Shown here: piece by piece, positions 905 through 63,225 of the stretch
Layout of the letters: every line of letters starts with the position of its first letter
Numbering within the stretch: position 1 is the stretch's first letter
From: Tomocerus qinae
Taxonomy: Eukaryota > Arthropoda > Collembola > Entomobryomorpha > Tomoceridae
Assembly: GCA_020055645.1 (NCBI GenBank)
Contig: CM034546.1
Location: forward strand, 116,424,375-116,488,374
Length of the DNA: 64,000 bases
Direction of reading: 5' to 3'
Made by a program: the position numbers and the translations under genes
Notes under the pieces: generated by a model
Databases searched by the model: none
The model's input: only the letters and a program-made list of their open reading frames with translations
Told to the model about the DNA's origin: nothing

Positions 905-1720
905 CAAATGCATTTTCTATTGTCGCAGAATTGTATTTGGGTGTATAGCTGAGCAGTATAAATATCCTAAAGTGTTTGTAAGTGCTCCGTTGATGCAGGA
1001 GTTTCTATTCCCTCCATTGAAAACAACAAATAGAAAATACAATAGGCAAAGTCCCACTAAAGTGAAATAAAGGTGAAGTGGAGTAAGTAAAAGTAGAGGC
1101 AAATCTCGTATCTTTAGTGTTTAAGCCCGGAGAAGCGGAGATATAGGGAGGTATAGTCTCCCGAGTTGGATCTATTGAATTTAGGAAGTATATAGGGAGC
1201 ATAGCCACATGCGGGAAAGAGTAACGTAAGTGTAGGGTAGGTTCTGTCTTAGAGGAGTCGCTAGTTGGTAGTAAAGTAACAAGTGTAATAGCATCGCACA
1301 TAAAATAATTTTTTACGGCCCCATAAAACTGATACTTTGCGTAAACGTTACAAGCTAAAGTGCATATTTACAACTACTACATTCTCTAACCTAACACACA
1401 TACATATGAATGCATTTCATTGCCAGTCAGTGCGGTTTTGTTGCAAATACTCGTCTTGTCATGTCCCATTCGTTAAATCTCAAGGAAAACCAAAAAGAAA
1501 ACGTCCCACACCAGAAATATCAGAGATGTGACTTTGCTCAGCTTCTTACTTGCCCCTTTTGTTTACTACTTACGCTTATCTGATAATATGGGAGTTTCCC
1601 TCGCATAATATTTGACTTGTCTTCTTCATTATTCCATAAAACAGCTCAACAAGTTCACAACAGCTTAACACATCATCTTATAAATACTCACTACTCATTC
1701 CCTTTGTCAACCACCAGACA
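905..1720. other. Strand-asymmetric island 1 (G-rich then C-rich)
   Basis: From about 905 to 1300 the plus strand is G-rich and C-poor, with many GTAG, GGAG and TAGGG words. From about 1330 to 1720 it becomes C-rich with CTAC, CACA and CTCA words. The switch is near 1300-1335. Short open frames on both strands here reflect this composition, and none resembles a known protein. Confidence 0.6.
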
Positions 1721-3840
1721 TAAAAATATCTGCTCTGGTTATCGCTACAGAAATATATGCAAACAGCAATCAAAAATTATTTTTTCTAAAATATCATTAT
1801 GCTCAATACATGTGTCATCAAAATACATTCTACTACAATTCCTTTTCACATATTTTTAAAATGTAAATTAAATTCTGTATAATATAAAGCAGATAGTTTA
1901 GTCTTCGAAATTAAATTATATACTACTGAGAGTATGTTTTGAGATGTTTGAAACGAAGTGCTTCTGTATATAGGATTGTGATCATTAAATAATTAAACTA
2001 AGTACACGCAAATCATTATGGCATTATCCGTTGGGTTGATGGATAGAGTTCGGAATAGACGAAGGGATTTGTTCACATTAGCTAATTCATGCATGTGTTC
2101 GTCCTCGAGTCTTAATTTATCACATGAAAAGTGTTAATGGTCATGTGAACTTTTAATCGCCTCGTGAAGTAAGGTTAGGGTTTAAGGTTGTCGTAAAATG
2201 GGAATAAACATTCTTTGTATCGGTTGTTGGTTGTTAATATGAAATGAAAAGATATAATCCAGCATATGTCTTCAATAAAAGTTTGCAAGTTCATAATACA
2301 TATGAAACAAATTGCATAGTCAAGTAGTTATGTTGTAATACGATAGAAAAGATTTTTATAGTCGTATAGCATGCTATATTTCATGCGTGTAGAGCAGAGC
2401 ATATACTATAGGAATTATTGTGAATATATTTAATACATGTGGACATGGAGAGCATTGGGGTACGTATGTTTCCAAGTACGTGAATGAAGTTTAGTATGGT
2501 GTAGTTGCACTGTTCGGGAAAACTTAAAGTTTATGACTGTCCTGTCTACTTTTTACAGTTAAGCTATCATCATCAAACTTTACGAGGCTGAAGAACCACT
2601 TAGAAATGACTTAATCTGCATCTAACAATAAACCTTAGTCAGCCAAGACAAACTATACCACATTGCACCACTCATAGATTTATACGGCCGCTTTGTGCTA
2701 GAACAACAATATGTTGCTACTAGCTCTCTACAGAGAGAATTGGAATTACTCCCTATAACTCCTTTTCATGCACAAAGTATCAATAGATATAAAATTGTAT
2801 ACTCTCGAGCAAGGATAGAGAAAATAATGACTACATTCAGTTAAGACATAAAAAATTTGGGTGTGGAGAGGATTGTACTAATAATGACTTAATTATCGCC
2901 TTTTGCATTGTGATTATGTATATTCCATAGAATAATGTTATTGTCGACAAGTGGAAGACAAAATCTGACTTTTCTTCAAGCATATTGGCTAAATAAAATT
3001 GGTACCTTCGGCTCTTATTCAATTGACTGTTATTAACGTTAAAGTTATTTCATAAGCACCTAACTTTGTTTTTGTTACACTCTAAAATATCTTGGAGCAT
3101 TCCGGCATTTTTCACAAAAAAACAGAAAAGAATTAACAAAGATAAAAAAGGTCAGAACTGTACTCAGACAAATATGTCCAGAATGCCCCAGTAAAGAATG
3201 CTGAGTGGACACGACTTGGTCGGGCCCGTACTCTCGTTTTCCTGACGTCTAATCCAGTGCGCAGAGTTTTTGTGTCGAAATTCTTGTGAACTGTTTCAAG
3301 TGCCGTCTACTCTCACTACATTTGACATTTACGACTGACATTGATAGCCCCCTTTGGCACTGAAACGGGGAGAAGTAGCAGTCGCTCTGTATAAACAACC
3401 AATAATACAAATTCAAGAAACGCAAGTACTAGTGGCTATTAAGAGTAGAAGAACATTTATAACGTCTTGGCTTACGGGCCGAAGCTGCTTAATAAACACT
3501 TACACCAGTTATTGTTAGTAGTTGAAAGGAACCCCTTTTGTTGTTTTATGAATGAAAATGAAAGCACTGTTTATGTATTTCTGTAGTATTTATGTTAACT
3601 TTACTATTTACTACTACTTTTACTATCAAAGCAGTCACCGCAGTAAACCACAAAAATATTACATACTTTAAAATCGACTCGACAGCCATTACGATTATTA
3701 TTATTACTGTTTCTCCCATTGACTGACTTTTGCGGAGGATGCATGATTGCTATACCCTAGTTTTACATTCCAGTTAGTATAGATTTACTTAAAAAGTGTG
3801 AATGCACTAGTGATATAGTTTTACTACTACACCCTATAAA
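1721..3840. other. Unassigned AT-rich spacer
   Basis: This is a mixed AT-rich sequence with no recognisable coding frame or repeat. A slightly GC-richer patch lies near 3190-3260. Nothing in it matches a family I know. Confidence 0.55.
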
Positions 3841-4960
3841 AGAGTAACATATAGAGAGTCATTTACTAGTTGAAATAGTAAAGTAACAACATAAACGAAG
3901 ATATTATGATGCCTAGTTTAGTTAATATTGCCATTGCCCTTGCACTTGCACTCTAATGTAATAGTTAATGTTGCAGTAATGCCGGAGGAGGATATTATAT
4001 TACAGTTTAGTGGGATAGTAGGGCTATTAGTTGTTTTAATAGTTTGAATGTTCTTTGCCACGGCACGGCAACCTATAGATACTGGTATAGTAGTAACTGC
4101 AAAACAAGCGGACTCAAGTGAACCTGTAGAGTTTATTCATAGTTATCGTTTTTGTAGTGAGCAGTTTACTAAGTTAAGTAGGCATTATTACATCTCTCTG
4201 CGATTCGGAGTTGGACAAAAGTAGTGGAAAAGGAAAGGCAAGTGCGGATTAAGGTTAGGTCAGGGTTGGGTTATTCTTCCAGCAAATGGGGTTATTTTGG
4301 GGAAATTAATGAGAGCCAGTTGACATAAACGTTTGTATAAAACGACCAGCTCGGTGATTCTGAGTTCTGAGCGAGAGAAAACGGCGACGACGGACTCCCT
4401 TCAACTCTCTACCCTTCTTCTTCTTATATCTTTCAATTCTCCCATTTCCCTAGATATGTACCTACTACTAGGATATGGCGTTTGATGGAGATACCTACTG
4501 ACTACTACAGACTCCTTCAGTCCTCAGTTGACTTGACTTGACTCGACTGTCTCTACTTTACTACTTCACTACTCACTCCATCCAAGCCTCTTCGTAATGG
4601 TCCATTTTATACGCTATATTCTTCACCAAACGATACCAATCTGTTCCTTCTTACTTTACTACCAACATTCACATACTTCTCTCTTCGTTTGGCCAACTTT
4701 TCAACAGTTTCACTCCACATCAAACATCCCCATGCAATTCAACTACTCAACTAAGTAAGTAACTAGCAGACATTCACGACAGGAACAAGACTACTAACTC
4801 CGAAACTGTTGCTTCTTTTATTATTCGGATACTTACACTGCAATTGATTTGATTTTTATAACCGCTCTATACATCCTCAACCACTTCCCCCTTCTATACA
4901 CCCTCTACTAATAAATACTCACCACATATACATTTTATAACCTATTTACTTACCACATGC
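3841..4960. other. Strand-asymmetric island 2
   Basis: G exceeds C from about 3840 to 4330 and C greatly exceeds G from about 4380 to 4960. Hand count: 3961-4080 has G 31 and C 14, while 4861-4980 has C 39 and G 4. The centre near 4360-4400 contains several CpG (GCGAG, ACGGCGACGACGG). A TTGAC pentamer run lies at 4527-4549. No coding potential is recognised. Confidence 0.7.
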
Positions 4961-6420
4961 AATCAGTTTTATTCAATTGCGCTTTCCGTCATTACTGCCT
5001 AATCATTTCCTATGTACTTTTTTATAGATCATAAAAGAATTTCTAGATTCGCGTACTTGTCTACAGAAACTAAGTTACAGTTATTAGTTTGTAGCAGTTA
5101 CACTTTGCTCTATGGTTTGTTATTTACAATATATTAATTTATTCTTGCAGTTCGACAAAATATGTACACTAGATCTACTAAAGCAATGGAAATTAAATAT
5201 AATATGCTAGACTGGAAAACAATTGGAAGGTTCGGATGTAAATATTTATAATAATATTTCAAAAAACGAAAAAATTATTATTTTCTTCAAACTTCCATTG
5301 AGACTTAGAGTGAATTAGTCTAGTTGTAAACAATATAAAATATTCTTAAACACGCAGTAAATATTATCCATGTGATAACTATCTGCACAGACTCACATTG
5401 CAAGAATTTAATTGGTTTTTTCTATTACACCTTCTCACGCACTGTGTAAACACATGTAAGAAATGAAATAGGAATGTATCAACTTCCCCTTGTTAACTTG
5501 AATGTAACAAGCTAGATTTTTTGCGGGTATCTAACCACGCAAGATAAAGTCATTATGAGTGAAATTACATTCTTTTACCATAATGCTTGGTACAGAACAT
5601 ACAATTACATATTTTTACTCACAACATAGGAATAAACACTTAGGTACTAGATATGATAAGTTACTTTTGCGCAATCGGGGGAAGAGTTGAATCAGTTCGT
5701 ACACGACATGGAAAATATATGTATTATTATCTCAGAGTAGTAATACTGTAGTTAAAAAGGTTTAGGACGACTTACAGTAGCATGTACCCCCATGGTTAGT
5801 ATAATATCTGCAGTAGTGATTTGGGTATCCTATGTTTTCTATTTGTCGGTTGGTTGATTTCAAACTGACAGTCTGATAAAAAATACAATTTGGCATCTAA
5901 TTTCCATTGTGAACAAGGAGGATGGCTGTCTGAATGTGAATTTTATACTGTGACGCTTGGAAATATTCGTCGACTGACTCGGTGTGGCTGTGCTATCAGA
6001 AACAGATTCTTAATCGATACAAATAGGCAAGGAATGAGGTTTGGATTTTTATGCTGATTCCCATTACGCATCCATCGTAGTCTGCATCCAATTTTCCAAG
6101 TAAGCCTACTTATTCTTACATTAGGATCCAGAAGAGATTTCCTTATAATGTGCGTCTAGTATTCACGTTAGTAGAAGAACGCATACTATATTTATCATTT
6201 GTGCATATTGTAGTCTGTGGATTTGGTTTGTAGGAGAAAAACTTCTCCCCTCGAATTTATTTCACGTTAAAGAGGTATATCATCTGTTGTAGAATCCTTC
6301 CATGCGTGTCTCATCCTCTTCTCTGCTCTGTCGGGCTACAAAATGGCAAAATAGTATTCCGTCCTCAAAACCGTATATGAAATCACATTTAAGCCGTATC
6401 GTGCTATCTACATTTGTAAA
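4961..6420. other. Unassigned AT-rich spacer
   Basis: AT-rich sequence with long A and T runs (for example 5230-5300) and no clear strand asymmetry. No open frame, repeat or RNA gene is supported. Confidence 0.55.
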
Positions 6421-7910: not shown

Positions 7911-8394
7911 AAAATGTACTTCTAGTGTGTGCATAGAATCCCGAGTGCAATTCAGTTCAGTCCACTTGGTTTCCGAAAAAAAGAAATGCTTTTAGTCTAT
8001 CGAGTAGTAAAAGTAGCGTCTGAATGTACAAGTACACAGTTTTATTTTTGTCGGATCTTTCTTGCAGCTTATACATAAATACATAGTAGCATGCCTGCCG
8101 GAACGTGAATTTCGTTTCGTTGGTTGGGCATCGGGTTTGACTAACCGTGATCTATCTATTTCTCCCTGTCTATCCGTCTGTCTGTACGGATATTTATTGA
8201 GCCTACATTTTTTCCAATGAATACCTACTGCGTTCATTTCTAAAAATGCTACACAAACTAAAAGAGTTCTAAGAGTATGTAGGTAGAGAGACATGAGAAG
8301 AAATGTATTTATGTACTCGAAAGTTGCAACGTTCGGAATACCCTTTTACAGAGAAAACTGATTTGAAAGTTTTTTAATAGCATTTTTAAATTAA
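7911..8394. other. Unassigned spacer
   Basis: Mixed-composition DNA. A minus-strand frame of 100 codons (7992-8294) has no recognised domain. A short TCTGTC/TATC run lies near 8150-8185. No element is assigned. Confidence 0.5.
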
Positions 8395-9765
8395 AGTTGG
8401 ATTTTGGGAGAGCATAACTCGTAGGAAAATCCGTTTGATGTAGAAAAGAAAGATGGAGGATCCGGTGAAGTGTGTACATTGTGAGAGATATACATAGTTA
8501 GAAGTAAAAGAGAGCACTTTTCCATATCAGTGGGATGATGATCTTGGAAAAGGCTGGTTGGTTTGCTCGCAGGGACCGGAATACATATCTCTGTGTACAG
8601 TCACTTCAGATAGCCCGATGTATTTATAGAAAAAGGAGTATAGGGAAGGAGTGAGGGAGAAAGCGGGTAGAGAGATAGTGAGTATGGAGTAGAGGAAGAA
8701 GGGAAGGCGTAGGGAAGGCTCCTAAATCTCCGAGTTGAGACAAATTCTTTTATCTGCCTTACTTTCCCCAACAAAGATAGATTAGCCCATTTTTGCAATT
8801 TTCCCTGTCTCCCATGCCCTCGTAACTCTTACTGAATTATGGCTTTTCTGAATCTCCACGGACTTAAGAAGACGCGAAATTCAAGCCGCTGCTGCTCCTG
8901 CTTCTTCTCCAGACTTTTTTCTCCTCTTTTTCTTCTCCCACACACACATACACACACGGAGTCTAATGCAAGAGAGCCCAGGAGCAAAAGAAGGGACATA
9001 GTAAATACATAATACCCGAGAATATATATATACGTTAAGTAAAGACTCTCAAAAAATTGCTTCTTCCAACAAGACGAAGAAAGAAAGTCAGAGCAGACCT
9101 TGCGTTGCAAAGGAACTGAACTGAAAGAACCATCCAACATCCAACCCGCCGCTTACAGAACATTCATCTTATTTGCTCGTATATAAAGTATAGCTCTCTG
9201 CTTTTACATTACATTACGTTACATTACATTAGATAGGCAGAGGAAGCCAAGAGCAGAGAGCCAGCGACACATACGCCACGCCAGACCAGGCTTAGTCTAC
9301 TTATAAATATACACCTAATGCTACTACACATATAATAACTCACCATGATATAGAGACTATAACTTATCTCTGAAATATACGACTGGATTATAGATCCAGG
9401 CATATATATACTTATAAATTTATAGTACTTTCTTATAGTCTTTTGTTAGCAGTTAGCTCCTACCCAATTTCGCTACCAACGAATAGCACTTTTTCTAGTT
9501 GTTGTGTTTCTCCTTCTTTAAACATATTATTATCATACTCATCGTTATTATTGTTATTATTATTGGACTATGAGAGCCTATAAGCACATACGGAGGAGAA
9601 AGACTAGAGAAAGCAAAACAAGGAACAGGAAATGTCCTACCCATTCGTCATCAACACCTATATATCTCCACATTACTTACATACACTACTATCTCCCAAG
9701 GCAAGGCACCATCATATTTACTATTTTACAATATATTATGACAACTATAAATAAATACTGAGAAA
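8395..9765. other. Strand-asymmetric island 5
   Basis: The left arm (about 8395-8720) is G- and A-rich, with GGGAG, GTAGAG and GAAGG words. The right arm (about 8725-8980 and 9120-9765) is C-rich. The switch is near 8720-8750. A CA run lies at 8939-8958, an ACATT pentamer run at 9203-9230 and an ATT run near 9546-9565. No coding frame is recognised. Confidence 0.6.
9203..9230. repeat. ACATT pentanucleotide microsatellite
   Basis: About five consecutive units of ACATT with one variant (ACGTT), read directly. It lies in the C-rich arm of island 5. Confidence 0.85.
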
Positions 9766-11879: not shown

Positions 11880-13640
11880 TGATTGAGAGATTGATGATTG
11901 AACTTTTTCATTCAATCATTTCTCGTGGTACTTATCCAGTTATGATAATGAGATACCTCAATTAGATAATGATTAGATAATAGTTAGTAGTGGACTGCAG
12001 GCTCGGGTTAGGTATGAGTCGAAGTAATATGGAGTAAAAAATTGAGTCCGATTGGAAATGCCAAGAAGGAGGGGAGTGAAGGATTGCAGTGTGTCTAGGC
12101 ATCGTGAGTAAAGTTATACATAAGTAAGATGAATTATAGGAGGGCAATGAATAGAATAGTATGTGCTCCAGATTAGGAGAGAGGACAGAGCTGGGGCTGT
12201 GAATGAAATGGAAGTAGAATGGCTAGGTATTAGAATATTTATAATGGAAGTTGCAATATAATATGTACATAGCTATTATGTATACTAACAAGAATAACGG
12301 GAAGAAAGATAGTTTGCTAAATTCGGAGGGCTAATGCCAGGCAGAGTAGTACGGGGCGGGTAGTAGTAGTCGGATTGGTTTGGTTGTCTGATGGTGCGGT
12401 ATGGCGCAAGCAATTTGATGATGTAGTAGGAGTAGGATTAAAGTGGAAGAGCACAGCTCAGCATTGCATAGCAATAACGAAGAAAGAGAATAGTGTAATG
12501 TAACGTGTGCCTCTTTGAATGATTTATTAGGAAAAGACTAATGAGCATTTCTCTCTCGCTCCATCTCTAGCGTAAGATTCATTGATTTCTCATTAAAGGG
12601 CTGTCGCTCTTTAGCTTGGCCCTTGCGAATTTCCATTAGTGAGTCATGTCGAGGGAAGCAAGAGAGACAATTTATCTTTTCACTGTTCTGCAACTATTTC
12701 CATGTCATAATGTGAACTTTGCACAAATTTCAAATTTTCCTATTGAAACTAAGTGTAGCTCTCTAGACTGGTAAAATCGGGATAATAGTATAATAATCAG
12801 TCATAGGGAGTCATATAGTAGCTCAGCCTACACTTTTATCATTAGAGATTATTTATGGGAGCAGAGGAGAGTGTTCATCGTATAAGTAGTATGTGTGTGT
12901 GTGTATCAGGGAAAATCCGCATTGGAGATTGTAGTGCTATCAGAGTGTGTGAATTATATGGGTGAGTGTAAAAAGGAATGCGTAAAAAAGAGTCGCGTCC
13001 AGTTGAAGCAAAGGAATTCTTAGTAATTGTACAGGGCATTAGTAAAGTTGCACAGCTAGTAAATACATCACTACCACACCAAGTCCACCACCATGCAGCA
13101 AACTAATTAATTCATCTGATTCTTTAGTAATTCCGCCTGTTGTTCTTTTGTTTGTGTCTTTCTTTGATGTTTACTCATCTCCTACGAGCTGTGACTCTCC
13201 CTTTATCTCCGTCCTGCAATAACTTGAGCAGTTAAGTAAGTTAGCTCTTATAAACTCTCCTATTATCAATACTGACTGACTACATTACAATAAACATTAT
13301 AGATACATTAGTAGGCTACAGAGACTTGCCCTCCCTTTCAGCTTCCTTTTCAGGCAACTACATTTTACATTACATTAACAATCATTTCATCCAACCACAC
13401 TATATTCTCTACATCACCACAATCCAACCTACCAAACTCATAAACCAAATTAACAGGTTTTGTCTCCACTTACTTCATTTCTACTCACTTGACTCACTTA
13501 ACTTCTGCTGCATACTGCATTACGGCACTACTTTATATATACTCGACATACATAGAGTACTCTACTACACCTCGATACAAAATCTTCAATAGAGTTATAA
13601 TATGTAAGAACTCGCAACAATTCGCCTTCTTCCATCTTGC
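11880..13640. other. Strand-asymmetric island 8 (large)
   Basis: The left arm (about 11880-12500, and again 12780-12990) is G-rich. Hand count for 12001-12180 is G 57 and C 16. The right arm (about 13050-13600) is strongly C-rich; 13381-13500 has C 39 and G 4. A pyrimidine-rich patch at about 12545-12625 interrupts the left arm. GTAGTAGTAG runs lie near 12360 and a GT run at about 12892-12905. The 88-codon frame at 13326-13592 has no recognised domain. Confidence 0.7.
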
Positions 13641-14260
13641 CTTGATTTTTTCTGTCTGTTAACTGGAAGATATACTATGAGCCTTCTTAGATACAAATGA
13701 ACTTAATGACTCCATTAGAACGAGAATTCCACTGTTTGGAATTGAGGGCTTTTTGTTTTGCTATTGCTACCTGTCTGTCACGTCAAGAAAAGTCAACTCT
13801 CGTGACATCAACTTCAAGACAGTTGAAGACTTCAAATCTCTCTCTAATGCATCACATTAAGGTAGACTCTTCTTGTATTCGATTGAATAAAGAGAATCCA
13901 AAGCTCATGAACTGACTATCTTGTCTTTGGCTTGTTTTGTTTTTGTGCCGTCTGTCTCAGCAGGCAAGCGTAGGTCGCGATAAAACAGAAAACACAATAC
14001 AACAACATTCGTTGAGCTGTTCTGTTGCGTTCTGAGAAAAAAGTCGGAATTTACGATGTCACATATAGGTACACCTATATAAACACTATATAGGCAACAA
14101 AAAACTAAATTCATGCCACAGCCAAAACAATGCAAAGGTATAAGATTTCCCTTTATTATACACTGATACAGTTTATAAGATTTTTTTAGTATGTTTCTAC
14201 ACTAGTTTGACTTATTAGTAGAAGAGAATGCACTATAGGGCCTTTATTGGGTTTACCTAC
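13641..14260. other. Unassigned spacer with a short hairpin
   Basis: Mixed-composition DNA. Frames of 72 (plus, 13697-13915) and 76 codons (minus, 13905-14135) have no recognised motif. A small perfect hairpin (ATATAGG, 4-base loop, CCTATAT) lies at 14063-14080. Nothing else is assigned. Confidence 0.5.
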
Positions 14261-15260: not shown

Positions 15261-15600
15261 TTGATAATTCGCAAACACTTGTAAATATTTATGCTCTTTA
15301 TAAAATAATGTATATTATTTATCCTGGCATCAACTGACTGTCCTGACTATTTATTCAGTATGCGATTCCAGTGACTCATAGCATTAAGAAATATCTACTT
15401 CTTACGGAAAATATCAACATTCCTCCGTTAATTAGTTAATTGCATCACCTGAACATACCGTTTCGTCCTTAATTTCTATTGGTCACATTACCAGCTTAGG
15501 GGGGGACAATAACATCTAATTACACCTTCTAATCTGCAATTAAATCAGTCCTTCATGATTTATTCCATGAGAATTAAATATACAAAAGAAAAAACCTCTA
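15261..15600. other. Unassigned AT-rich spacer
   Basis: AT-rich with no skew. A G7 run (GGGGGGG) lies near 15500. No gene is supported. Confidence 0.5.
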
Positions 15601-17250
15601 AATGAACTAGAATTGTATAGGTACTGTGGAAAATCGAGAGTTTCTTGTAGTACAAATAGTTTTTTCTGCTTTGAGATAATATACTAGCTGAATATGTCTA
15701 GTGTAGTTTTTATGCGTTGTAAAATAGTAAATTTGCAGTTAGCCACTTATTCTAAGATTGAAAGTAAAGATTCACGTCCTCGTGGAGATATATTTCTTGG
15801 TGGAATCAGTTGGGTGTGCATGGAAGCTGGGTGATAAGACTTAATTAAGTAAAAGATGAGAGTCTTGATTATTAGTTTTGCTGTGCCTTGATTTCGTTGG
15901 TGATGTAGTAGGATGTGGAGGCATATGGAAGATGTTTGTACAAATATATAATTTAATACGAGAACTCTCTCTCTCATGGACTGCATTGCAATATGCAAGT
16001 TATGAAGCTGTGCTTATGTGTTTGTAAATTGTTGCAGATGATAGTTGGAGAGAATAATATTCTGTTGGTAGTGATGTAATATCTAATATGAAATTTTATA
16101 TACGAGGTGCTAGCAGGAAAGGGATAGTGATGTACGACTCTTGTGTATTATCATATCTATCAGTATTCTGGAAGGCAAAGCAGAAGGCATGGTGTTACGT
16201 TATGTGATGGGATGTTCTATTGCATTATATCTCCTACTGCTTACTCCTAAATTATATAATTCTCTCATATATAAGTGTATATGTAATGTACCTCATTATA
16301 TAAGTATATGCATGTATAGAGAGAGCCTTTGTTGCACTGCATGCATATAACATGAGATATGATGTAGTAAGTAACACGAAGCAGCAACCGGGTCTCCTTA
16401 TGATATTAGATATACTTATAGAGCCAAGGTACCTCTAGATAGAGCGTATAGCGTGGAGGGTGTGCACTTGCTCCCCTAAAAGGGAATTTTGGCTTTCAGC
16501 CATTTCGATTTTCTGACAGTGATTAATTGACGACGCAGGGTCGCCATTCCTGATGGATTTTCAGGCATCCAATCTGCTTCTATACTTATGTTCTGTTCAC
16601 CCACCGAGCTCAATGCTCACAACTTACCAAACTATGAATCCAGCAACCTTCCTCTCGTCTCTTATGCACAATACATATAAATTCTCCTTTTTAACTCTGT
16701 CTGCTTTCGGCTCAAGTGGCCTGGTCTCTCTACTCTACCCTAGCACAGTCGAACTACATACTAACTTCCCGCAGTCCTCCATACACAACTCACAACCAAA
16801 GCACTTTTTCCTACACTAAACTTCCCTTTAGAATTTGCCTGGCAACTTTAACTTTTGCTTTGACTACAACTGACTGGAATTCATCCTTCTTGTCATGTTT
16901 TTCCTTCACAGACTTTGGCTCCCGAGCCGTACGCCACTTTCTTTCCCGTTTTACCCTTTTTTTCACTTTGCTAAAAAAGAGCTTTTCTTCCATCCATCTA
17001 TCTGTCTGTCTCTCCGTCGGGTCGCTACACCATTACCCACCCTTTTCCAAACCTGATGAATGATAAGGACAAGAAACAGATGTGAAACTGCGGTTCTCAA
17101 TTAAAAACTACCAACGCGCTACCTTTGCCAATAACAAACTTGTCTGCAGTCCCTATCATTATCATGACACTACTCTTCACTTACTACTTATACCTAGTAA
17201 CTAAATAGTTATAACAATCTCTTTTCTCCTCACGAATATACACTGACTCC
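15601..17250. other. Strand-asymmetric island 10
   Basis: The plus strand is G-leaning from about 15600 to 16240 and C-rich from about 16540 to 17240, with a transition between about 16260 and 16540. The 115-codon frame at 16716-17063 and the lysine-rich 60-codon minus frame opposite it are products of the pyrimidine-rich strand and match no known protein. Confidence 0.55.
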
Positions 17251-19200
17251 GTACTTTATCTTATTTTGGAACATATTCAATATTATTTTTTATCTTAAAT
17301 TGACGTTTTTTGGAAATAAATAGATAACAATTGTATATATCTTGCAATGTTTTTTATAGATATGCATTTTCCAATATATTGATATCAATTGGGTTTAATG
17401 TGACTCTGTTTAAAGTGACGTAGAAGGATGCGTCTGAATTTTAGTTTGCGTTCTGAATGATATTTTCATTGCATGCAGAAACGCAATTGTGTTACGTAAT
17501 AGCTCTAAAACAGTGATCATGTCTTCGCATAATAATTTAACAAACAAAACATATGTTAGGTATTACCTACATAAGAATTTAAGGGAAACAAATGGGAGAA
17601 GCGAGAGAGTGAAACTGATGGGATTTTAATTGCTTAAATGGCTTTTATTGTGTTTATAAAGAGCTAAGAAGGCCATTATGCACAAGTACATAGTACCTTC
17701 CCCTACATGTATAGCTAATATAATTATATCCATATATACTAACTAAGTACTAGTGGAGTCACGAGACAACTGCATTAAATAGTAACAGCATACAAGTATC
17801 TATGTGCATTAATTGTGTGCATTTCAATGGATATCTACAAAGAGGTATCTGCAGGGAGAATGCCTTTGTACAAAATGCATTTCTCTGTTGTAAGAATTAA
17901 ATAAGCACTTGTCTTCCTTCAATGAGATATCATTATGCAACGTTTGTATAAAAGACCATTATAAAATCTTATCGTCAGAGATGTACAGTCAGTTCAGTTA
18001 CCTGCCTATACATGTACGTAGTATTTATTTAATGCACTGCAAATTCCTTGTTTGTTTGTTGATTCACATTTTATATTTGTTTACAGCATTAATGTACATA
18101 GCTCTATTCCGCCGCGTCTTGAACCTACATGAACATTACACGAGATCGTACATAATAAACAGAATAGACATAGGTAATAGAGATCATTTGATTCATTTAT
18201 CTCGCAGTTAATCTCGCAGGTACTCACTCCATAACCAACTAAGTCAAGCATCGTAATATCCAAGCACGGTGAACAATTTAATGTCTACTCCTGTTGTCAT
18301 TATTATTCCCTTATCAGCCTCAACTACTATATAATGTAATATAAACTCCTCTTAGCACTACAGTAAAAATGACTACTCAAAATTCTCTTCTATCCCCTGC
18401 TTTTCCGTTTGATGATGTGAAAATGTGCATAATTTTCTGACACAATCTTTAAATCTTTATACTACGTTATCTGTAATTTTATGGAAGTTATAACACATAA
18501 TATCTCTTTCCTCTCTACCGGAATATATTACAATGTCAAAGTATTAAACCGTAGTTTAAAAATAATTGATCTTCATTAATATTCAACTTTATATGTCAGA
18601 TACATTTTGGATTTTGATATAGTATGATCGTGTTGCATTTTGGTTAACTAATATTAGATGCATCTTTTTGCTGTGTAGAAAACAACAATGATATTTGTAC
18701 TATGCATTGGGATCTATAAGTTGTGACAATATATTTGACAAATTATGATTACTATGTTTATGCTACGTTATGTTTCAGTCTAGATTTTTTCTCTGCTTCA
18801 GTAATCGTAAAAATTGGGTGTGTACTAAAAGAGTACAAGTAAATTTAAATGCGTTTGATTTTAACCATTATATGCTAATGCTATCGCTATAGTTGACAAC
18901 AAATGAATTAGTAATAATATAATTAATTACTCCACTAGCATATTCCACTAAATTACATTAATGCACAGTATCTTTACTCTACATAAAGATAAAGTGGGGC
19001 ATGCGCATGGGATTCTTTCACTATTCCTGAATAAATGTTTGTATCTACTATGTCCGTAATATTTTGTAATTAATGAGTAAGGGTATATTTTGTAATTAAT
19101 GAGCGCAAGGACTATATAGGCTATCAGTACTGAGTCCAATCAACGGTCTATGAAATTCGGGCCAATGCGCAGTCGCTAGAAATTTACTGATTTCAACATT
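17251..19200. other. AT-rich DNA without recognised genes
   Basis: Mostly balanced AT-rich sequence. A frame of 100 codons (17909-18211) has no recognised motif. A short direct duplication of ATATTTTGTAATTAATGAG starts at 19059 and again at 19085. No RNA gene or transposon end is seen. Confidence 0.55.
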
Positions 19201-20160
19201 TTCTAGCACACTTTATGTGTGCTAGGATTCAACTAGTGAAATAATAATTGTTTTACTGGATCAGACTGTGAAGTGTTGAATCGGGAGTTTCGGAGGTTAT
19301 TTAGAGGTAAAAGGTGGGAATTAGGATTGGCCGGTGTGGCGTGTGTTGGTCATGCCTGTCTTGTGTGTTTGTCTTGTTGGTGAAAGCTGTTGCATCGTCA
19401 ATAGTGTGGATAATGATATGAAGTGTGTACGATGTGTATCAAGCTGGGTTAGTGGCAGTTGAATCTGTTTTTTGAATCGGCAAGGCGTTCGCAATCCTCC
19501 TTAAAGTGTCAGCAATAATCGTAAAAGTCGGCCGTAATGGCATTTCCTATGAAGACTGCATCATTCCTTACCCAATCCTCCTCAGCCCCACTCAACTCAA
19601 CTCTGGAACTCCGCTCTCCACAATGTCCTCTCTTCTATTTACTCAAATACGCTTATACCGCCATGCACACCGTCCTGGATATGTCCCTATACTCGGTTAG
19701 CACAGAGACACATACTTCTTTCCTGCACTACTCTACTACTGACAGAACTGATCTTAGCTGAACTCTCCATCTCTCTCTCAACTTTATAGCGATAGCTACA
19801 TGGAGACACTTTCCCCGCATCTTTTCCTAAATAGAATACCTTCGCTAACAATAAGCCACCAAAAATTATACACTGAAATATCTTTCCCTTTAATAAAGAT
19901 TAGTTTCCACCAGGAAATTCGAGAACATTCCAAAAATCCGATCATCTTCACAAAGAAAATAATACCTTGGCTACTTAAAAAAATCGTCCTTCATAACCTG
20001 CTTCTCGATGATAAAATTATATCTCACTATTCTCTATATTATCCTTTCCAAATGACTATCCCTCTAGACACTTATCTTCTACATACAACATTCAGAAGCG
20101 ATACGATTCCTGTTTGATTTTTCTATTTTCTTTGATTTCATCCTACTTAGTAGAAATCCC
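19201..20160. other. Strand-asymmetric island 11
   Basis: The left arm (about 19210-19520) is strongly G-rich, with GTGTGG, TTGGTG and GGGAG words. The right arm (about 19555-20160) is C-rich and begins with CTCAACTCAACTC at 19591. The switch near 19530-19550 is sharp. Frames of 64-105 codons in the right arm have no recognised domain. Confidence 0.65.
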
Positions 20161-20739
20161 CTTGCCTTGCTAAATCATTTGACTCAATCGTCAATCCTCA
20201 TCAGAATCCCATGAAAGTCATGAAATGATATTTCTAAGCTTTATTTATACAGCTCATTCAGGTAGCACTCATCTATGTCAAATAAAATTGATTACATACC
20301 CACAGTATAGTAGCATGCTATTAAGTTCTTAGTTCCTACTACTAGCTACATAAAATGGATATTGAGTCCACTTATAGGTTTACACCAGGTTTACACAGAT
20401 TAATAATTTGCATTAATTTTGAAACAATCCGACCGATTACATAAATATTCGTGATATAATATTTTTAACTTGAAGAATTTCTCTAGGTATCATTTCTCAA
20501 AGTCATTACCCACCAGTTAAAGTTTTCAATTTGGTTACAATGCTATTTAGCACTGTTATTTAGCACAATTCACAATATATTAACAATCACAAGTTAAGGA
20601 AAAAGATTTTCCACTCGAATATCAAAAATTGAATCCTAAACCATGAATTGAAGCGGAAAAGGCATTTATTTCATTTGAGACATAATTGTTTCCTAAATCG
20701 ATCCTCTTGTATTATCATTAACAATAAATGTGTGACCAA
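20161..20739. other. Unassigned AT-rich spacer
   Basis: AT-rich, roughly balanced sequence. TTATTTAGCAC is repeated twice around 20545-20570. No gene is supported. Confidence 0.5.
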
Positions 20740-21560: not shown

Positions 21561-22136
21561 ACTGTTAAAAATTTCTGCTACCGGGACCAAGATAACTGCA
21601 GCTTTAAGGAAAAATGCAGTAACAATACCAAATTCGTCACTTGATATCCGTGAAAATGTTACTATGTGTTCATCCTAAACATAGGAGTAAGTGTCCATAC
21701 AGTAACATTACCGAATTCAACATGGCGCACACTAAAATACGGTAATAATTACTGCATTTAGCATACGTGAGCATACGCGACCTTACCACTCATGCATATA
21801 CACTTAAAGCAACAGAAAAATGCCAACTGCATGAGCAGCATGCACCAACATTGCACTTCTTTCTTTTGTTCAAACCACCAAATCGAATTAATTGTCAGAA
21901 TTAGCCGAAATTTGATAAACTATTCACCGTTCTGGAACCACAATTGACCCTTCACCGGACTAAGAGTGTCTGTATTACAGCTTGAACCTAATACAACTAC
22001 AACAAGAATTTGAAGGTAAACTATTTGTATTTAATCATATAGAATAAAAAAATTATTTACTACTTACTATAACTATTGACTAAGTTAAGTATCGTGTAGG
22101 TGTAGATAGATTGGAAAATTTTAAAATGAATTTTTT
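21561..22136. other. Unassigned AT-rich spacer before the tandem array
   Basis: AT-rich DNA leading into the tandem array. No gene or element is recognised. Confidence 0.5.
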
Positions 22137-24804: not shown

Positions 24805-24838
24805 TATCACATCACATCGCATCATATCACCTCATCAG
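24805..24838. repeat. Degenerate ATCAC pentamer run
   Basis: Successive ATCAC, ATCGC and ATCAT units spaced five bases apart, with a few variants, read directly. Confidence 0.7.
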
Positions 24839-41470: not shown

Positions 41471-41689
41471 ATCATTAACATTTGTAATATTATTATGGCT
41501 TTCAGTCGAGTGCATTTATGAATCCTAGAATTTAGTACACATATGCTATACGTAGAATGTAGCAATTGTCCCTAGAGCACTAAATAATTTTATGCAATAA
41601 GAAAACAAGAAATTAAACCTGCTGCTTTATTATGTATATCCTATCACTACTAGTTTGCATAGCCAACTAACGATAAGTAAGTTGAGAAA

Positions 41690-48780: not shown

Positions 48781-49080
48781 TACCAAACAAAAACTTCCAA
48801 AATGGTGCGGATGAAATGTATTTTTATTTTATTTCAAGTCTGCTTGATATTTTTCAAAGCACATATATTATTACCAGATTTTCTTTAACAGATTCTATAA
48901 ATGACATCAACGAATTGGACTTCATCAATAGTCTACTGTACTGTTTATGTAACGTGCTAATACAAGTGGTAACTTAAACTGATCGACTGTCTTTGCTTAG
49001 AGTAATCCGAAAGTAGTTGTAAACATGAATTACGTATCTTTCACAAAATATTGATTAGAAAAATGAGCCTAAGTAGTAAT
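48781..49080. other. Unassigned spacer
   Basis: AT-rich DNA with a 66-codon frame of no recognised identity. Confidence 0.5.
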
Positions 49081-49400
49081 TAACTGCATGAAAATGTATA
49101 AGATGGATTTAAAACAATGTATGTGAAGTTGGATAGTGAGAAAGAGATTGTTTGATAAAAGAGATAGGGTAAAAACATATAAATCTAACGGAATTGGTGA
49201 ATATTGAGTTTTGTAGTAAACTGGTATTGTTGTAGGTATAGAATAGTTGTAGGAGTTGTTTGAGTGTTCTTGTGCTGTTTCTGTGTGAGTCTTTCGCGTC
49301 AGTTTTTTGTTGGGCTGGTTGAGTGTGCTGTATGTGTCTGACGGAAAGTCCCGTCTTTCTCTTTTCCTTTTCAGTCTCAGTTGAGTTGTGTTCTGAGAAG

Positions 49401-49426
49401 TTGAGTTGAGTCAGAGTCAAGTTGAG
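49401..49426. repeat. TTGAG/TCAGAG pentamer run
   Basis: TTGAGTTGAGTCAGAGTCAA followed by GTTGAG, with five-base spacing and drift. Confidence 0.65.
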
Positions 49427-49480
49427 CATTAGATCGCATTGCATTACATTTAGTTTCGGAGGAGACTGTAGAGGAGCAAG

Positions 49481-49509
49481 TACATTACATTGCATTACAT
49501 TTCATTGCA
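49481..49509. repeat. ACATT/GCATT pentamer run
   Basis: ACATTACATTGCATTACATT followed by TCATTGCAT, about six five-base units. Confidence 0.8.
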
Positions 49510-50400
49510 TATCTTGAGCTTATAGATTTCACCTCGAGTTATAGGATCTGATATAAAGGTTGCATTGAAAATCAAAGAGCTATAGAGTGTGTATCTGTAT
49601 GTAGTTCGTGTGGATGGGTGTAGGTAGTAGTATAGTGTGTTTTAGGATATGTGTTGGGAAAGGAAGGAATGGGAGCTGTAGTCGACTTTGCTCGTCTCGA
49701 GCTGAGCGAAGCGACCGGAGCCATATATCACTTCTAGCTGTCAGATTATTCTCGTCCCACCAACTCCTAGGATACATCCACAAAAGAATAACAAAAGCTC
49801 TGCTTTTCTTTATTAAGCGCAGGAAAACGAGGGAGTTTCACATCAGTTCGGTTCAGCTCAGTCAGACAGCCTTCCATTGCATTACCTATCTACTCTTTTT
49901 CACGTTCTAGACCTATATATCTATCTCTGTCCACATACAAATACAAACTCATCCTATATTATGTATAGCTTGCTTTCTATAATCGTAGTAATTCCTTGTC
50001 TCTCCTACTCCTTCTGTTACTTTACTTTAGCTTTAGTTCACTTCACTTCACTTGACTTCTCTTCTCAGTCAGCTCGCAATCAGAAATTCAGGGAAAGCAA
50101 GAAAGCCAAATCCTTTAGCCAAGAACGTGCATTACTGAGTCTTCTCTCTATGTACCTCTATCATAGTATATAACAGTAGATAATGTATGTACACTATTGT
50201 AGTACACACGGAATAAACATTGCAGTTAAAGCCTTAAGTCGGAATCGAATCGCACGGGAGTTTGAGTTTACTCTTTTCTATTCCCTCACTCAACTCACAC
50301 AAGACAACATCCTAACTAAAGTAAAGCAAACTCAACTCACAACAGTCAACTTTAGTCAAGTCACTCACATCACGAACTGCTAGACACAAGATACAACATC

Positions 50401-51290
50401 CAGGTACAATATGTGAAGATAAGGGTAAAGATGCATCTACTACAAGGACAATGACTATAGTTCATTTCTGCTATTTATCGTGTAGTAATAGTAGTAATAC
50501 TGTATCATATGTTGTATTGTGTGCGGGTAGTAAAATTGTTGGGGATGCAGGAATCTGCTATATGGATTGTATACAAGTTAGAAAAAGTTGAGACAGAGAC
50601 TGGTAGTCTACTTCCTAGTGTTTCTATGAAATATGTATAGAAATACACACAGAACAGAGGCTAGAACATAATCTTCGTGGTTCTCCTTCCTCACTCTTTT
50701 CTCTTGCCAACCAACTCGTACAATGCATTATGCTCAGCCTATTACTTATGTATACATGCACTGTTTCCCTTCCCTTGGCTTAGTTATCCATTCTCTTCTA
50801 TCCAAAGCCTCGTCTCCTTAAGTTTCGTCCTGTCTTGTCTTGTCCTCTGATCCTTTTCTGATCTCATCTTCTTTACTCCTCGTTTCGGTTTCGGCAATGC
50901 CACTTTCCATCCATCCGCCCGTCTCTCTAGCTAGCTACAACTACTACCTACCTTACACCCAACAACAGCATTAGCCTCAACAACAGCCTTTTTAGCTTTA
51001 CAATCACCTACTTACTGCACAAATACACACAATCTTTCATTACTCCTCCACAAAAGATTCTTTGGGATATTGTACAATTTCTAAAGGATTCTCCTATATA
51101 GCCATCTCCATTTTATTCCAAGTCCACTTAAATCCGTCTCTTTACAATCTCTCTAACACAACTATTCTCAAATTGTAGTTTCACTTTTTTCAGTTCCTTT
51201 ACTTTTCTATCATTGTTATTGCGGTGACACTTTTTGTTGCTTCGTTTCTTCCTTTCACGTTTTTACTAACTCCAACTCACTCAATTCTGA
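50401..51290. other. Strand-asymmetric island 20
   Basis: G-leaning from about 50400 to 50665 and C-rich from about 50680 to 51290. The switch is near 50670. A TCTTG/TCCTG pentamer run lies at 50827-50847. No frame above 60 codons is recognised. Confidence 0.6.
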
Positions 51291-54200
51291 TCTGCTGCTT
51301 TATGGTATCACTATATTAATAGATATACCCATGTTACCCATGTTAAAATATATTTTCAAAAAGTTACATAATTTTCTTAAAAATACACAGAGAAATTGTG
51401 TATTAAATCACCACTACTACAATTGAATATTACACAGATGAACTTTATTAGATGCATAAGATAATTTTTTCTATAAATTGTATTTTTTACCGTATTAAAA
51501 CCAATTTTATATATTAGCAAGGAATAATTTTTGGCGTGCACAAATAGAAACTTTACTAATTTCGGAGTTCTCATTTTAGAATTGGAATATTCTACAAAAT
51601 CACATCTTTTTAAATAGTAGATCCTAAAACCCCTAAAAGGGCATTATCAAACAGCTGTATAAAATTATTTCTTTCCCTTTCTGAAATACTAATTCAGGAG
51701 ATTTGACAGATGACTTTCGATATCATTGATGCTAAAATCTTCTACAAATACCTATTTATGAATGAAATCGTAGAAATACAATTTAATAAACGCCCTTTTA
51801 AAATGTTTATGTTACCTACTTGACAGAAGTAGTGTATTTTAAAACTAAATAAAAAAACTTCATAATCAGGATCGACCCCATGCATATTAAATTTTCTTAT
51901 TTCTCAGAGAATACACGTATAAAAGTGTGATGAGCTCTTAAAGTTCAAAGTTTGAATGTCCATATTGAAGTGATGAATTAGCAGATTTCATTCATTAAAA
52001 TATTGGATGTAGGTAGTTAAAAAGCGTTAGTACTTAATTAAATAGCAGTAAAGACAGGAGCAGGAGTTTTTATAGCAGGAATTGAGCGGGCGTAATAGTG
52101 GCGTTTACAGAATAACGTTACAATAAAAATAAATGAGCTGTTGGAGCGATAGTTGGAGTCAGAAGTGTAACGGTTTCACATCATAAATTCATTCATCTTA
52201 ATAGATACAGCGATGATAATATCAAATCATAATTCATAAGAAAACAGGTCTAGTGAAGCAACTTATTAAATCATCATAAGGATATCCTGCAGTGAATAAA
52301 TCGCAAGAAAATTAACTTGATATTTATTTAATATTCTCCTAACTAACCACGCACAGAGTGCAATAACATTTAATACACATTTCACTTATAATTCATCCGA
52401 ATTACAGATGCTAGCCTCATATGTCATGTAGGTAGTCTATACTACTACGAAGCAGATGCTAAGTGCAGACAGTGGCAACATTAACACAAAGCATGGTCAA
52501 TGGTAGTGGTTATGTAGTATTTACAATGATAAGGTTTTATTACTTACTAGAATGATATCAAATTGTAATGTAGCAGGTAGATTAACTCGGAATGAGCACA
52601 GCAAAACAACTAATGAATGCGATAAGATACACAATACACAACATGAATATCTCCATACAAGTATCCTATATAATACACCCATACGCTACAGATTAAGTAA
52701 TTATTTTATTCTGCTCAATAGCATAGGGGATGCTACACGATGTAAAGATGCAAACCAAGGCAATCCACTTTTAAGGTGCTCCAGTACACTAAAACATTGC
52801 TTCTAGAGTGTCAGTATTATTGTACGGATCCACGTATAATAAGCTACCTATCGTGTACTCTGTTGTGTTTCTAATCTTAATCCTCCAAGGTGGTCCGGTG
52901 CACTCAAACAAATACTACATTTCTACAACCAGACAAAAAACAAATCCATCTGATTTTCCTAGACTTGTACTTACCGTTTATTTTTCCTCCTAGCCAATAA
53001 ATTGTTCCCAAATGAACAATGCAAAATACATGCTTACATAATACATTGCAACGACAGTAAACAAATCCTAATTGCACAGCATTCCAGTCTAAACTCACAA
53101 TGCACTCGTTTGTGGTAATTATACCTAATAAAACTCGTCTTCAAATTCCTTTATTTATGCACGTAGAATTATGGAGATTCAATTACATCTTCGCTTAAGC
53201 CAATTACATAGTTTGAAATGAATCTTCTTAAATTAACTGACAGGATGAGGGAAATGGGAGTACTTAAACGAGAAAGTAGGTACTTAATAATGCATTGCAC
53301 TATGCATACAAACTGCACGGAAGAGTAAGGCAACTAAAGATAACAACAAAAGTCAAAAAAGTCTTGGAAAAGTTTACAAAAACAAAGTTTGAAGTACAAG
53401 TAGTAGAGTCGGCATTCAGTCACAGTTATCACTCTTCTTTTCAGACGAACTCAGCTTCTGAACAATCTTCGCAGCAACTTGGGCATGATAATAGAATGTT
53501 CCACTATCATTATCACGATCTCAACTTTTTCTTACGTTCTCTACTCTTTGTCTTGTCTTTGTGACTGAGTGAACAGAGAACACACGTCACGCTTATTTTC
53601 TGAAGAATTTCCTTACCTTCTGCAAACTCAGACCATGCAGAATAAAAATTTACTATTCTTACTACAACTTGAAGTATACAAGTTTCTTATTCCATAGACT
53701 CTATCATACAACAGTGGTATCGGTAGTTGCTGTTGCTACACATATCACATACATTTACACAGAAAATGCTAACATAGGACAAACTTGTACAATATTGGAT
53801 TCTCTCGTTTATCGATATTACAATATTTCATAAAGGAAAAAAAATTTTAGCTTATTTTTTGGTATATCTTAAAACTCGAATCCACCCGGATTTTGGTAAA
53901 CCAAAAAAGTTTTTTATGATTATATACAGAATGTGTAGATATTCTTGGCGAATTAAAATTTTGCTGTAAGAATAGTATTGATCTAATTCAGGCATAACAA
54001 GAAATATTTGATTACAAATGCCTTTGTATACAAATTAAAATAAAATAACCGTACTGGAGTGTTTGTACACGTGTAAGCTATGAATCTGGTTTTGCTTGCT
54101 TTCAAAGTGATTAAAACAGCATAATATATTAGATATTTCATAAGTACGCTGTACCGTGCAACTTGTGCCTCTATCACTGTTTAATATACTCAGACATTAT

Positions 54201-61259: not shown

Positions 61260-61965
61260 CATAATATTAGGTATGTTATAGTTGCTGTGCGTGTAGAAAG
61301 GAAGTATAGACAGTTTATTTCGAGCTGTGTCATAGTATGATTTGTAAGGTATGTGGTGTATGCGTGTAGTAATAAGTGAAGTGTGTGAGTCTGTGTAGCT
61401 AGCTGAGTGACGTTGTTGGGATGGCGGAGGGCAGTGCAGTGTCTCGGAGAAGTTTGGCATGGCAAGTTAAGGCAATGCAACGAAGGAACCCCCTCTGCTC
61501 TGCTTTCCTCTTGTCGAAATAATCAATCTTTGTCCAAATGCTACTCCTTCCATCCATCGCCATTGCATGAATTTTTCTTTCCTTCTCAAAGCAATGCACT
61601 ACATAACCTAGGATAGCGCGTTGTTAATACAGGGAAGGCAGAGTAGGTAGCTCCATGCCATACATACATACACGGCAGAGTAGAAATGAGTATAGGGACG
61701 GAGAGTTACGTACGCGCCTGGCCCTTAATGTTCCTCTGCCATTATTTATCTTGTCTTGTCTCCTTTTCTCCTCCTGTCCCTGTCCTTGTCGCTTTCCCTG
61801 ACTCAACTAACTCAACTCATGCCATCAGCTCTACATTGCCCTACCTACTTACTACTTCATTTCTCTTCTCTAACAAACTCTTCACTCCACTATTACAACT
61901 ACTCACAACTAAAACTCTATATGCAACCGTCTTCATACTATTTTTTCATTAAGAACTATGCTTAA
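61260..61965. other. Strand-asymmetric island 23 (strong)
   Basis: 61261-61440 has G 61 and C 14 by hand count; 61741-61920 has C 62 and G 10. The switch is near 61465-61490, with a less skewed middle (61490-61740) that includes short G-rich words near 61640-61700. ACTCAACTAACTCAACTCA lies at 61801-61819. Several overlapping frames of 60-88 codons exist on both strands, and none is recognised. Confidence 0.72.
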
Positions 61966-62535
61966 AATTTACTAAAAAATTGCACCTATCATAATACATG
62001 CTGACTTTTCGCAGATTTCAACTAAGAGCAATTAAATAGCAAAATTGGCGTACGTCAAAAATTACTATTTACATGTATGCCTGCTTACAGACTACAGATA
62101 ATATGTTTGAATTCCGAATACAGAAAATAAAATAGTATGAATATAATTAATTCAAGAGAAGCATTAGATTGTGTTTGTAAGTTGAGTTGATAGTGACATT
62201 CATGTTAATATCTTGCTAGTTACATTCTTTCATTTAATACAGAGCTATCGTAGTAATTTATTTCGAGTTAAATAAACAAATAAAAAATTACGCCATACAA
62301 ACAAAGAGCTGTGCCAGTTAAAACTGTTCTGTTTAATTGAAATGAATTATCGATTGTTATAAATTGAGTTGAGTCCTTTCTGCATTTCCAATGTATCTTT
62401 AAAGCTGAGGAACACTTGCAGAAGTATTAAAGTATTGGCTAAAGATGATTTATTAAGTGTGATATTGCAAAGAAAGAGTCCAGTTTAGCTAAAAAGACAG
62501 TTGTAAATTTACGGCCAAAAACGTAACAAGTAGAA
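61966..62535. other. Unassigned AT-rich spacer
   Basis: Balanced AT-rich DNA with nothing recognised. Confidence 0.5.
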
Positions 62536-63225
62536 ACTGAATATTTCACGCAGGATGTATCTAGTATTAGAGTGCAGTTTGTGGCAACGGTAAAAGACAA
62601 AAGAGTGTGGCAGTAGCAAAACGATAAAGATAGTTTGTTGTCTGAAAGGCATAGAGTGTATACGGACTGTGTAGCATGTATGTAGTGGAATAATATAATA
62701 GGGAACCGATAGAGTGAATAGTAGATGGATAAGGAAGAAAACAGACGTGGCTATAGTGTAATAGGTAGACGAAGGCAAGGCGGTGGCCATATAATACTTA
62801 ATGTCTATTAGGGTCATAAAATTAAGCAAAATGACTCGTTTGGTAGGGTTTATCTCAGCTCGGGCTATTTAAACGACCATAACTGCCTTGTTAACAACAT
62901 ACTTACTCTTTTACTAGCTCTGCTCTCGTCTCTGCGTTATTCTGGTCTATCCAATGCAATACTCGACTCCACACGAACATATATCTTTGGACGTTTGAGC
63001 CAGTAGTTGAGTCAACTCGAGGAGTCTTGTAGCCTTCTTAAACACATTATCTCTTTTTATGCGTTCACTTCACAATCCTCCGTTCTTCTGTGCTTTCCGC
63101 TCCATTGTATTCTATACTAGTTCTGCTTACAGTTGAATACTTTGAATTCTACTTTGCACGTATACCTATTGCAACTGCATTATCATATACATAGAGCATT
63201 CGTAAATATAATACATTTGTGTGCG
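62536..63225. other. Strand-asymmetric island 24
   Basis: G-rich from about 62540 to 62820 (GTGTAG, GTAGTGG, GGTAGACGAAGG) and C-rich from about 62870 to 63180. The switch is near 62830-62865. A 106-codon minus frame (62509-62829) is unrecognised. Confidence 0.6.

Follow-up and report, generated by a model that had tools for sequence, protein, structure and literature searches.

Mirror-image strand composition around GC-rich centres in the putative Ubx-Antp interval of the springtail Tomocerus qinae

Introduction

Why should a stretch of DNA pass repeatedly, and in the same order, from a G-rich to a C-rich tract along one strand? The question is raised by a 64-kb stretch of the genome of Tomocerus qinae (assembly GCA_020055645.1, 334 Mb in 115 contigs; contig CM034546.1, hereafter C1, positions 116,424,375-116,488,374), referred to below as the window, which has a GC content of 35% and lies, to judge from the homeodomain sequences on either side of it, in the Ubx-Antp interval of an arthropod-type Hox cluster. 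A sequence-only reading of the window had described about twenty islands, each with a G-rich left arm and a C-rich right arm, and had considered their polarity to be fixed. We report that this polarity is anchored on local maxima of G+C content and that it belongs to a part of the genome only. The islands are tentatively interpreted as GC-rich cis-regulatory elements of the Ubx-Antp interval whose outward C-bias would stem from divergent noncoding transcription, an interpretation to which we give somewhat less than an even chance.

Polarity around G+C maxima

Skew steps were calculated as the skew difference between adjoining arms of 100-800 bp, a down step passing from G to C and an up step from C to G. 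In the window and its two 10-kb flanks, together the 84-kb region, the centres of down steps are GC-rich. With 200-bp arms the GC content within 50 bp is 0.43 at down and 0.31 at up centres (p<1e-4) and down centres also contain more CpG (p 0.001-0.011); with 150-bp arms the GC values are 0.42 and 0.37 (p 0.017). Since down switches are centred on GC-rich and up switches on AT-rich DNA, the G+C maxima were adopted as anchors, taking the highest local ones, on average one per 2.5 kb and at least 800 bp apart, blind to polarity. Reversing a sequence without complementing it retains the maxima and flips the sign of the skew, so that 50% of the anchors are expected to be G-left/C-right under the null hypothesis.

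The comparison set consists of 19 other 10-kb stretches (190 kb), divided into seven skew-structured and twelve bland ones (120 kb) according to skew variance itself. For the anchored test, the other skewed stretches are L020, L024-L027, L038 and L041 (seven stretches on contigs C1, C2 and C3); L013, which carries a repetitive frame, and L017, which carries a retroelement, were excluded and two skewed 2-kb pieces were added instead. Because the anchor was chosen after the down-switch centres had proved GC-rich, the test in these other stretches is a replication that is not fully blind.

Of the 25 maxima in the window 23 show the G-left/C-right order, as do 7 of the 8 flanking maxima and 18 of the 22 in the other skewed stretches (25 of 30 for flanks and other stretches pooled), against 20 of 48 in bland DNA. 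At G+C minima the corresponding counts are 4/25, 2/8, 5/22 and 21/48. Symmetric simulations with a hidden Markov model (HMM) including CpG depletion give a mean fraction of 0.49 (sd 0.08, maximum 0.68), all 60 staying below 23/25. Across the twelve settings used, the lowest counts in the window are 33/42 and 21/25 and the highest 37/42, 23/25 and 15/16, denser anchoring yielding 33-37 of 42; the flanks range from 5/8 to 11/12, the other skewed stretches from 8/12 to 28/32 and the bland stretches from 6/24 (p 0.023, in the opposite direction) to 34/72, with another sparse setting at 7/24 (p 0.064). Masking simple tracts leaves 22/25 in the window and 22/48 in bland DNA, and the additional removal of the central 200 bp leaves 20/25 in the window, 4/8 in the flanks, 16/22 in the other stretches and 22/48 in bland DNA. 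Three window anchors (3286, 7722 and 46320) have trivial skew differences and a fourth, 34649, falls inside a foldback element. Around the maxima of the Hox region the outward C-bias amounts to +0.19 at 100-200 bp and has vanished by about 700 bp; in the other stretches the bias is smaller (+0.12) and extends further. Five 2-kb pieces sampled from the genome comprise two skewed ones (C1:110 Mb and C3:20 Mb), each passing from G to C, and three bland ones.

Amplitude and raw polarity of the skew steps

The amplitude of the skew in the window is far above chance. At z>4 there are 21 down steps and 7 up steps with 100-bp arms (binomial p 0.0125), 20 and 11 at 200 bp (p 0.15), 23 and 13 at 300 bp (p 0.13) and 19 and 16, near parity, at 500 bp (p 0.74), and steps with z>5 at 200 bp number 10 down and 1 up (p 0.012), while in 20 Markov-1 simulations per setting the mean number of z>4 steps is at most 0.4 and the maximum at most 2. 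These counts far exceed the control and are unbalanced at short arms, which places the amplitude beyond chance and confines the excess of down steps to sharp ones. Applied to the cubed step, a sign-flip test yields p <=0.0001 at 100 bp, 0.0001-0.0003 at 200 bp, 0.0015-0.008 at 300 bp and 0.015-0.095 at 500 bp in the window and is not significant on the two 10-kb flanks alone (p 0.16-0.65). In the 19 other stretches the cubed-step skewness is close to zero and the raw z>4 counts show no polarity (19/21, 26/23, 25/20 and 24/17 down/up with arms of 100-500 bp). Direct HMM boundaries in the 84-kb region, counted as G-to-C over C-to-G, number 21/18, 16/14, 15/7, 14/7, 8/2 and 6/2 at six settings.

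The ten hand counts of G and C on which the sequence-only reading relied were all exact on recount. Its statement that no sharp switch occurs in the opposite direction was mistaken, as the up steps at both short and long arms and the HMM up boundaries demonstrate (Table 1). The polarity that it had called fixed holds around G+C maxima, outside the window as well, and does not hold for raw switches. As for the count of crossings that it had proposed against a Markov control, the amplitude is borne out and the imbalance fades by 500 bp; repeated elsewhere in the genome, the count reveals no general excess of down steps.

Skewed and bland parts of the genome

Skewed tracts make up 25% of the sequence in the 84-kb region, 19% in the seven skew-structured stretches and 1% in the twelve bland ones. 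The genome thus has skew-structured and bland compartments, and the skewed islands belong to the former. The window has a local observed-to-expected CpG ratio of 0.63-0.75; six skewed stretches have 0.61-0.79, L013 has 0.98 and the bland stretches have 0.70-0.95. Two of the bland stretches contain transposon-like open reading frames (ORFs), RVT_1 in L011 and PIF1-like in L019. The retroelement of L017 (C1:85 Mb) occupies its positions 1-5479, with open frames encoding a reverse transcriptase and a phlebovirus-like G2 glycoprotein domain.

A search for homeodomains returned 94 matches, 78 of them on contigs C1-C3. Skew associates moderately with nearby homeobox genes: over 24 stretches and these 78 matches, skew variance rises with closeness to a match (rho -0.44, p 0.030; -0.52, p 0.013 without L013 and L017), the 55 stronger matches giving rho -0.49, and -0.58 without the same two stretches. 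Bland stretches near homeobox matches exist as well, L018 at 0.8 Mb and L023 at 0.9 Mb. The skewed stretch L025 carries a paired-type homeobox gene that is not among the 94 matches and that we take to be DRGX-like; its Pfam homeodomain is partial (E 0.009, under the family cut-off) and, by our reading, a down switch probably lies in an intron of this gene.

Location in the Hox cluster

Ten 200-bp homeodomain pieces were translated, nine of them from the Hox cluster, and named after known homeodomain sequences. On the minus strand of C1 we take the genes to be labial (115.557 Mb), Hox3 (115.676) and Dfd (115.785), a further minus-strand match at 115.606 sitting at the expected position of pb and being a candidate by position only. 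On the plus strand they are presumably Abd-B (115.972 Mb), abd-A (116.160), Ubx (116.349), Antp (116.522), ftz (116.632) and Scr (116.673). The tenth piece, at 117.727 Mb, would belong to a Gbx-like gene. The window lies between the homeoboxes assigned to Ubx, 75 kb to its left, and Antp, 34 kb to its right. Under the same names, the cluster extends over 115.557-116.673 Mb and its anterior block adjoins Abd-B in opposite orientation, as after an inversion.

Composition and sequence content of the arms

The C-rich strand contains A.294, C.269, G.107 and T.330, compared with a neutral composition of.326/.174/.174/.326. The shift affects all dinucleotides bearing C or G except CG and GC (CC 1.98-fold, GG 0.40-fold, AC 1.48-fold, GT 0.55-fold). 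G-rich strands are slightly A-rich as well: the GC and AT differences are positively correlated, with r of 0.14-0.32 in skewed and 0.00-0.05 in bland stretches. This sign speaks against a simple transition asymmetry, of the deamination or transcription-coupled kind, which predicts opposite GC and AT skews, G going with T. Two pairs of words exceed expectation, by a factor of about two in skewed sequence and of about 1.6 in bland sequence: GAGAG+CTCTC occurs 207 times against 108.7 expected in the window and flanks, 192 against 86.6 in other skewed and 135 against 85.7 in bland stretches, and CTACTA+TAGTAG 118 against 58.0, 89 against 43.0 and 75 against 46.5, respectively. AATAAA seemed to be in excess outward when 400-bp arms were selected by skew (44 versus 33); on longer arms chosen blind to polarity the excess was gone (107 versus 110).

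The islands do not consist of inverted-repeat arms, a shared repeat family or tandem repeats. Aligned with its own partner arm, an island scores 22.2 on average, compared with 22.0 for shuffled and 23.0 for cross-island pairs, and none of 19 islands beats all 20 shuffles. Comparing the window with itself by BLAST (E 1e-4, low-complexity filter on) recovers only the foldback element, the 261-bp array and two tandem duplications, and a tandem-repeat scan returns four rows in the 64 kb, the islands not being tandem arrays.

Features of the window

No gene emerged from the window, which has neither a tRNA nor an Rfam match. A Pfam scan of 90 hand-picked ORFs of at least 68 aa returned weak matches only (best E 0.003); as the window holds 197 ORFs of at least 62 aa, short exons may have been missed. 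Searching the 84 kb for Antp/Ubx N-terminal or YPWM motifs gave two chance-like matches. The earlier view that genes, repeats and transposons do not explain the islands thus largely stands.

Table 1. Skew islands, switches of opposite sign and repeats along the window (window positions; z, skew step at the arm length given)
Position	Feature	Composition or structure	G+C maximum	Basis
1058..1849	Island	G-rich 1058-1291, C-rich 1292-1849		HMM; z 5.1 at 150 and 200 bp
1849/1850	Direct up (C to G) switch	Ends island 1058..1849		HMM
4207..5010	Island	G-rich 4207-4394, C-rich 4395-5010	~4300	HMM; z 6.5, 7.1, 8.5 at 200, 300, 500 bp
7503	Sharp up switch			Step statistic
8259..8957	Island	G-rich 8259-8718, C-rich 8719-8957	~8642	HMM; z 7.3 at 100 bp
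10669/10670	Up boundary			HMM
12841..13641	Island	G-rich 12841-13050, C-rich 13051-13641; additional G-rich segment 11960-12451		HMM; z 5.7, 6.0, 7.0, 8.2 at 200, 300, 500, 800 bp
15598/15599	Up switch	Start of island 15599..17260		HMM
15599..17260	Gapped island	G-rich 15599-16216, C-rich 16566-17260	~16521	HMM; z 9.2 at 800 bp
19234..20210	Island	G-rich 19234-19491, C-rich 19492-20210	~19627	HMM; z 7.6 at 200 bp
20758..21582	Double island	G 20758-20994, C 20995-21053, G 21054-21218, C 21219-21582		HMM
21053/21054 (~21055)	Sharp up switch	Inside double island 20758..21582; the window's strongest up switch at 100-150 bp		HMM (21053/21054); step statistic (21055)
21600..41800	Stretch without strong down switch (none in 21218-41874)	Contains tandem array and foldback element; 4/5 of its G+C maxima still pass from G to C		Steps at 200 bp, z>4
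22135-23271	Tandem array	261-bp unit, 4.4 copies, 92% matches		
34198-35332	Foldback element	Long inverted arms, 97-98% complementary		
34529-34837	ORF inside foldback element	Presumably mariner-like		No transposase family from Pfam scan
45158-45724	Tandem duplication	~287 bp, 90% identical		
48269	Sharp up switch			Step statistic
49045..51388	Two adjoining islands	G 49045-49720, C 49721-50401; G 50402-50682, C 50683-51388		HMM, steps
50401/50402	Sharp up switch	Between the two islands of 49045..51388		HMM (50401/50402); step statistic (50402)
61261..61997	Two adjoining islands	G 61261-61488, C 61489-61608; G 61609-61721, C 61722-61997	~61462	HMM, steps
61608/61609	Up boundary			HMM

Other features of the assembly were recorded. 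Many HSP70-domain matches, among them a number in open frames as long as 1842 aa, occur at C1:26.9-27.6, 60, 64, 78-81, 129 and 132 Mb, remote from the three canonical-looking Hsp70 genes at C2:14.68 Mb. ABC transporter matches cluster at C4:20.7-25.8 Mb and C5:1.7-4.1 Mb, and 16 of the 19 among the matches listed lie in apparently intronless open frames of 955-1228 aa. Interstitial TTAGG arrays are present on both strands of C1, C2 and C3 among the matches listed (184 forward and 216 reverse overlapping 30-mer matches); like the Hox genes, they point to an arthropod.

Discussion

Cis-regulatory elements in which initiation is divergent, be they enhancers, promoters or elements of the Polycomb or boundary type, agree with the position in a Hox interval, the GC-rich centres and the outward C-bias mirrored on both sides. 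From each GC-rich centre, both outward-pointing strands would be C-rich and G-poor for about 0.5-0.7 kb, and because the bias points outward on both sides, each element reads G-left/C-right whichever way it faces. The most likely source would be short divergent noncoding transcription initiating in the element, with a start-site composition of the C-biased, invertebrate type, and mutation or selection may have given rise to the bias. AT-rich zones where the arms of neighbouring elements meet would produce the switches of reverse sign.

Polak and Arndt reportedly found that strand asymmetries arise bidirectionally at human CpG islands, irrespective of gene annotation. These also spread both ways from GC-rich centres; however, the outgoing human strand is reportedly enriched in G and T over a longer range, whereas here it is C-rich over about 0.7 kb. 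Start sites are described as C-biased on the coding strand in fungi and invertebrates (PMC3315797). The islands resemble this known skew in that the outward, putative sense strand is C-rich and G-poor near the centre and differ from it in their location, since the known skew lies at gene ends and the islands lie at many G+C maxima without known genes and are absent from bland DNA. In the fly, divergent transcription has been reported for about 81% of those transcribed distal enhancers that belong to the developmental core-promoter type (PMC6009668); these are likewise symmetric outward elements in noncoding DNA, defined there by RNA data and here by composition alone. The Ubx-Antp interval of insect Hox clusters, the identical genomic interval, is large and described as regulatory, and strand skew is not mentioned in the available portions of these sources (PMC10945631, PMC10914929). 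By title and beginning of abstract, no report on GC skew in Hox clusters was found, nor any description of such islands in Hox or developmental loci among the best matches listed, which leaves their absence from the literature unproven.

Several results weigh against divergent transcription from regulatory elements. Over 106 arms, polyadenylation, 5' splice-like, TATA and TCAGT words point outward no more often than composition predicts (|z|<1.7), and this absence of directional RNA words counts against transcription. Two bland stretches, L018 (Nop14-like) and L021 (kinase), carry gene exons without skew structure, and no clear island was seen by eye in 200-bp skew rows at the three canonical Hsp70 loci. 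Masking simple tracts lowers the anchored counts to 5/8 in the flanks and 16/22 in the other stretches (p 0.052; 21/30 pooled), and anchoring on CpG counts is weaker, with 16/25 in the window, 5/8 in the flanks, 15/22 in the other stretches and 22/48 in bland DNA. In the other 190 kb the GC difference between down and up centres has the same direction and is not clear (p 0.06 at best). L013 and L017, with their repeats and retroelement, reach 8/8 under the main setting and 5/8 when the windows are 400 bp long, so that the polarity is possibly not specific to regulatory DNA. The weaker homeobox correlation with all 78 matches, together with the stray settings of the bland control, slightly lowers the odds further.

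An alternative that we consider unlikely retains the regulatory elements and derives the skew, without transcription, from purine/pyrimidine words to which proteins bind (such as GAGAG/CTCTC and CTACTA) or from constraints of DNA shape or nucleosomes. The stronger enrichment of these words in skewed than in bland sequence and the slight A-richness of G-rich strands are in its favour. However, the same words are enriched in bland DNA too, if less strongly, the shift spans every C- or G-bearing dinucleotide but CG and GC, the polarity of the window survives when purine/pyrimidine runs and short repeats are masked and the fixed left-right order would require an additional reason.

That order is equally a difficulty for a neutral build-up, unlikely as well, in which old, transposon-poor DNA has retained asymmetric tracts that younger, transposon-rich DNA has yet to acquire, their polarity stemming from mutation near some local feature and not from gene regulation: by itself the process gives no G-left/C-right order at G+C maxima. 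It would account for the concentration of skewed tracts outside bland DNA, a contrast to be read with the grouping by skew variance in mind, and for the transposon-like ORFs of L011 and L019; yet deamination predicts GC and AT skews of opposite sign, and the skewed stretch L017 contains a retroelement.

Replication origins at the GC-rich centres, with strand-biased errors on both outgoing forks, are improbable. A symmetric outward bias is what an origin should leave, and centres a few kilobases apart might suit the fast cell cycles of embryos, but C-richness of the outward leading strand would be the reverse of the G-richness usually found there; the arms extend only about 0.7 kb in the Hox region, and the restriction to part of the genome would be unexplained.

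Still less probable is a chance clustering picked out by a pattern-seeking reader. The lack of raw polarity in the 19 other stretches, the partly post hoc anchor, the dependence of HMM counts on settings and the two sparse settings at which the bland control strays would all agree with it; the sign-flip p of about 1e-4 at 100-200 bp, the symmetric simulations centred on 0.49 and the replication in flanks and other stretches, masked or not, would not. Foldback or other transposons, whose inverted repeats give a fixed polarity automatically, are scarcely credible as a general cause, since one true foldback element is present while the arms of the islands align no better than shuffled ones and self-BLAST reveals no shared family among them.

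Divergent initiation in regulatory elements remains our tentative preference. More doubtful is the broader proposition that, in this species, GC-rich elements sharing this mirror-image signature tile the noncoding DNA of developmental loci, much of the remaining genome being strand-neutral. If it were true, strand composition alone would map the cis-regulatory elements of the Hox cluster and of other homeobox regions. Should the anchored polarity hold genome-wide, it could be asked, and tested, what sets Hox-type regulatory DNA, with its strong local strand asymmetry, apart from bland DNA, and a single assembly, without RNA or related genomes, would be enough to flag candidate regulatory elements in the developmental loci of non-model animals.

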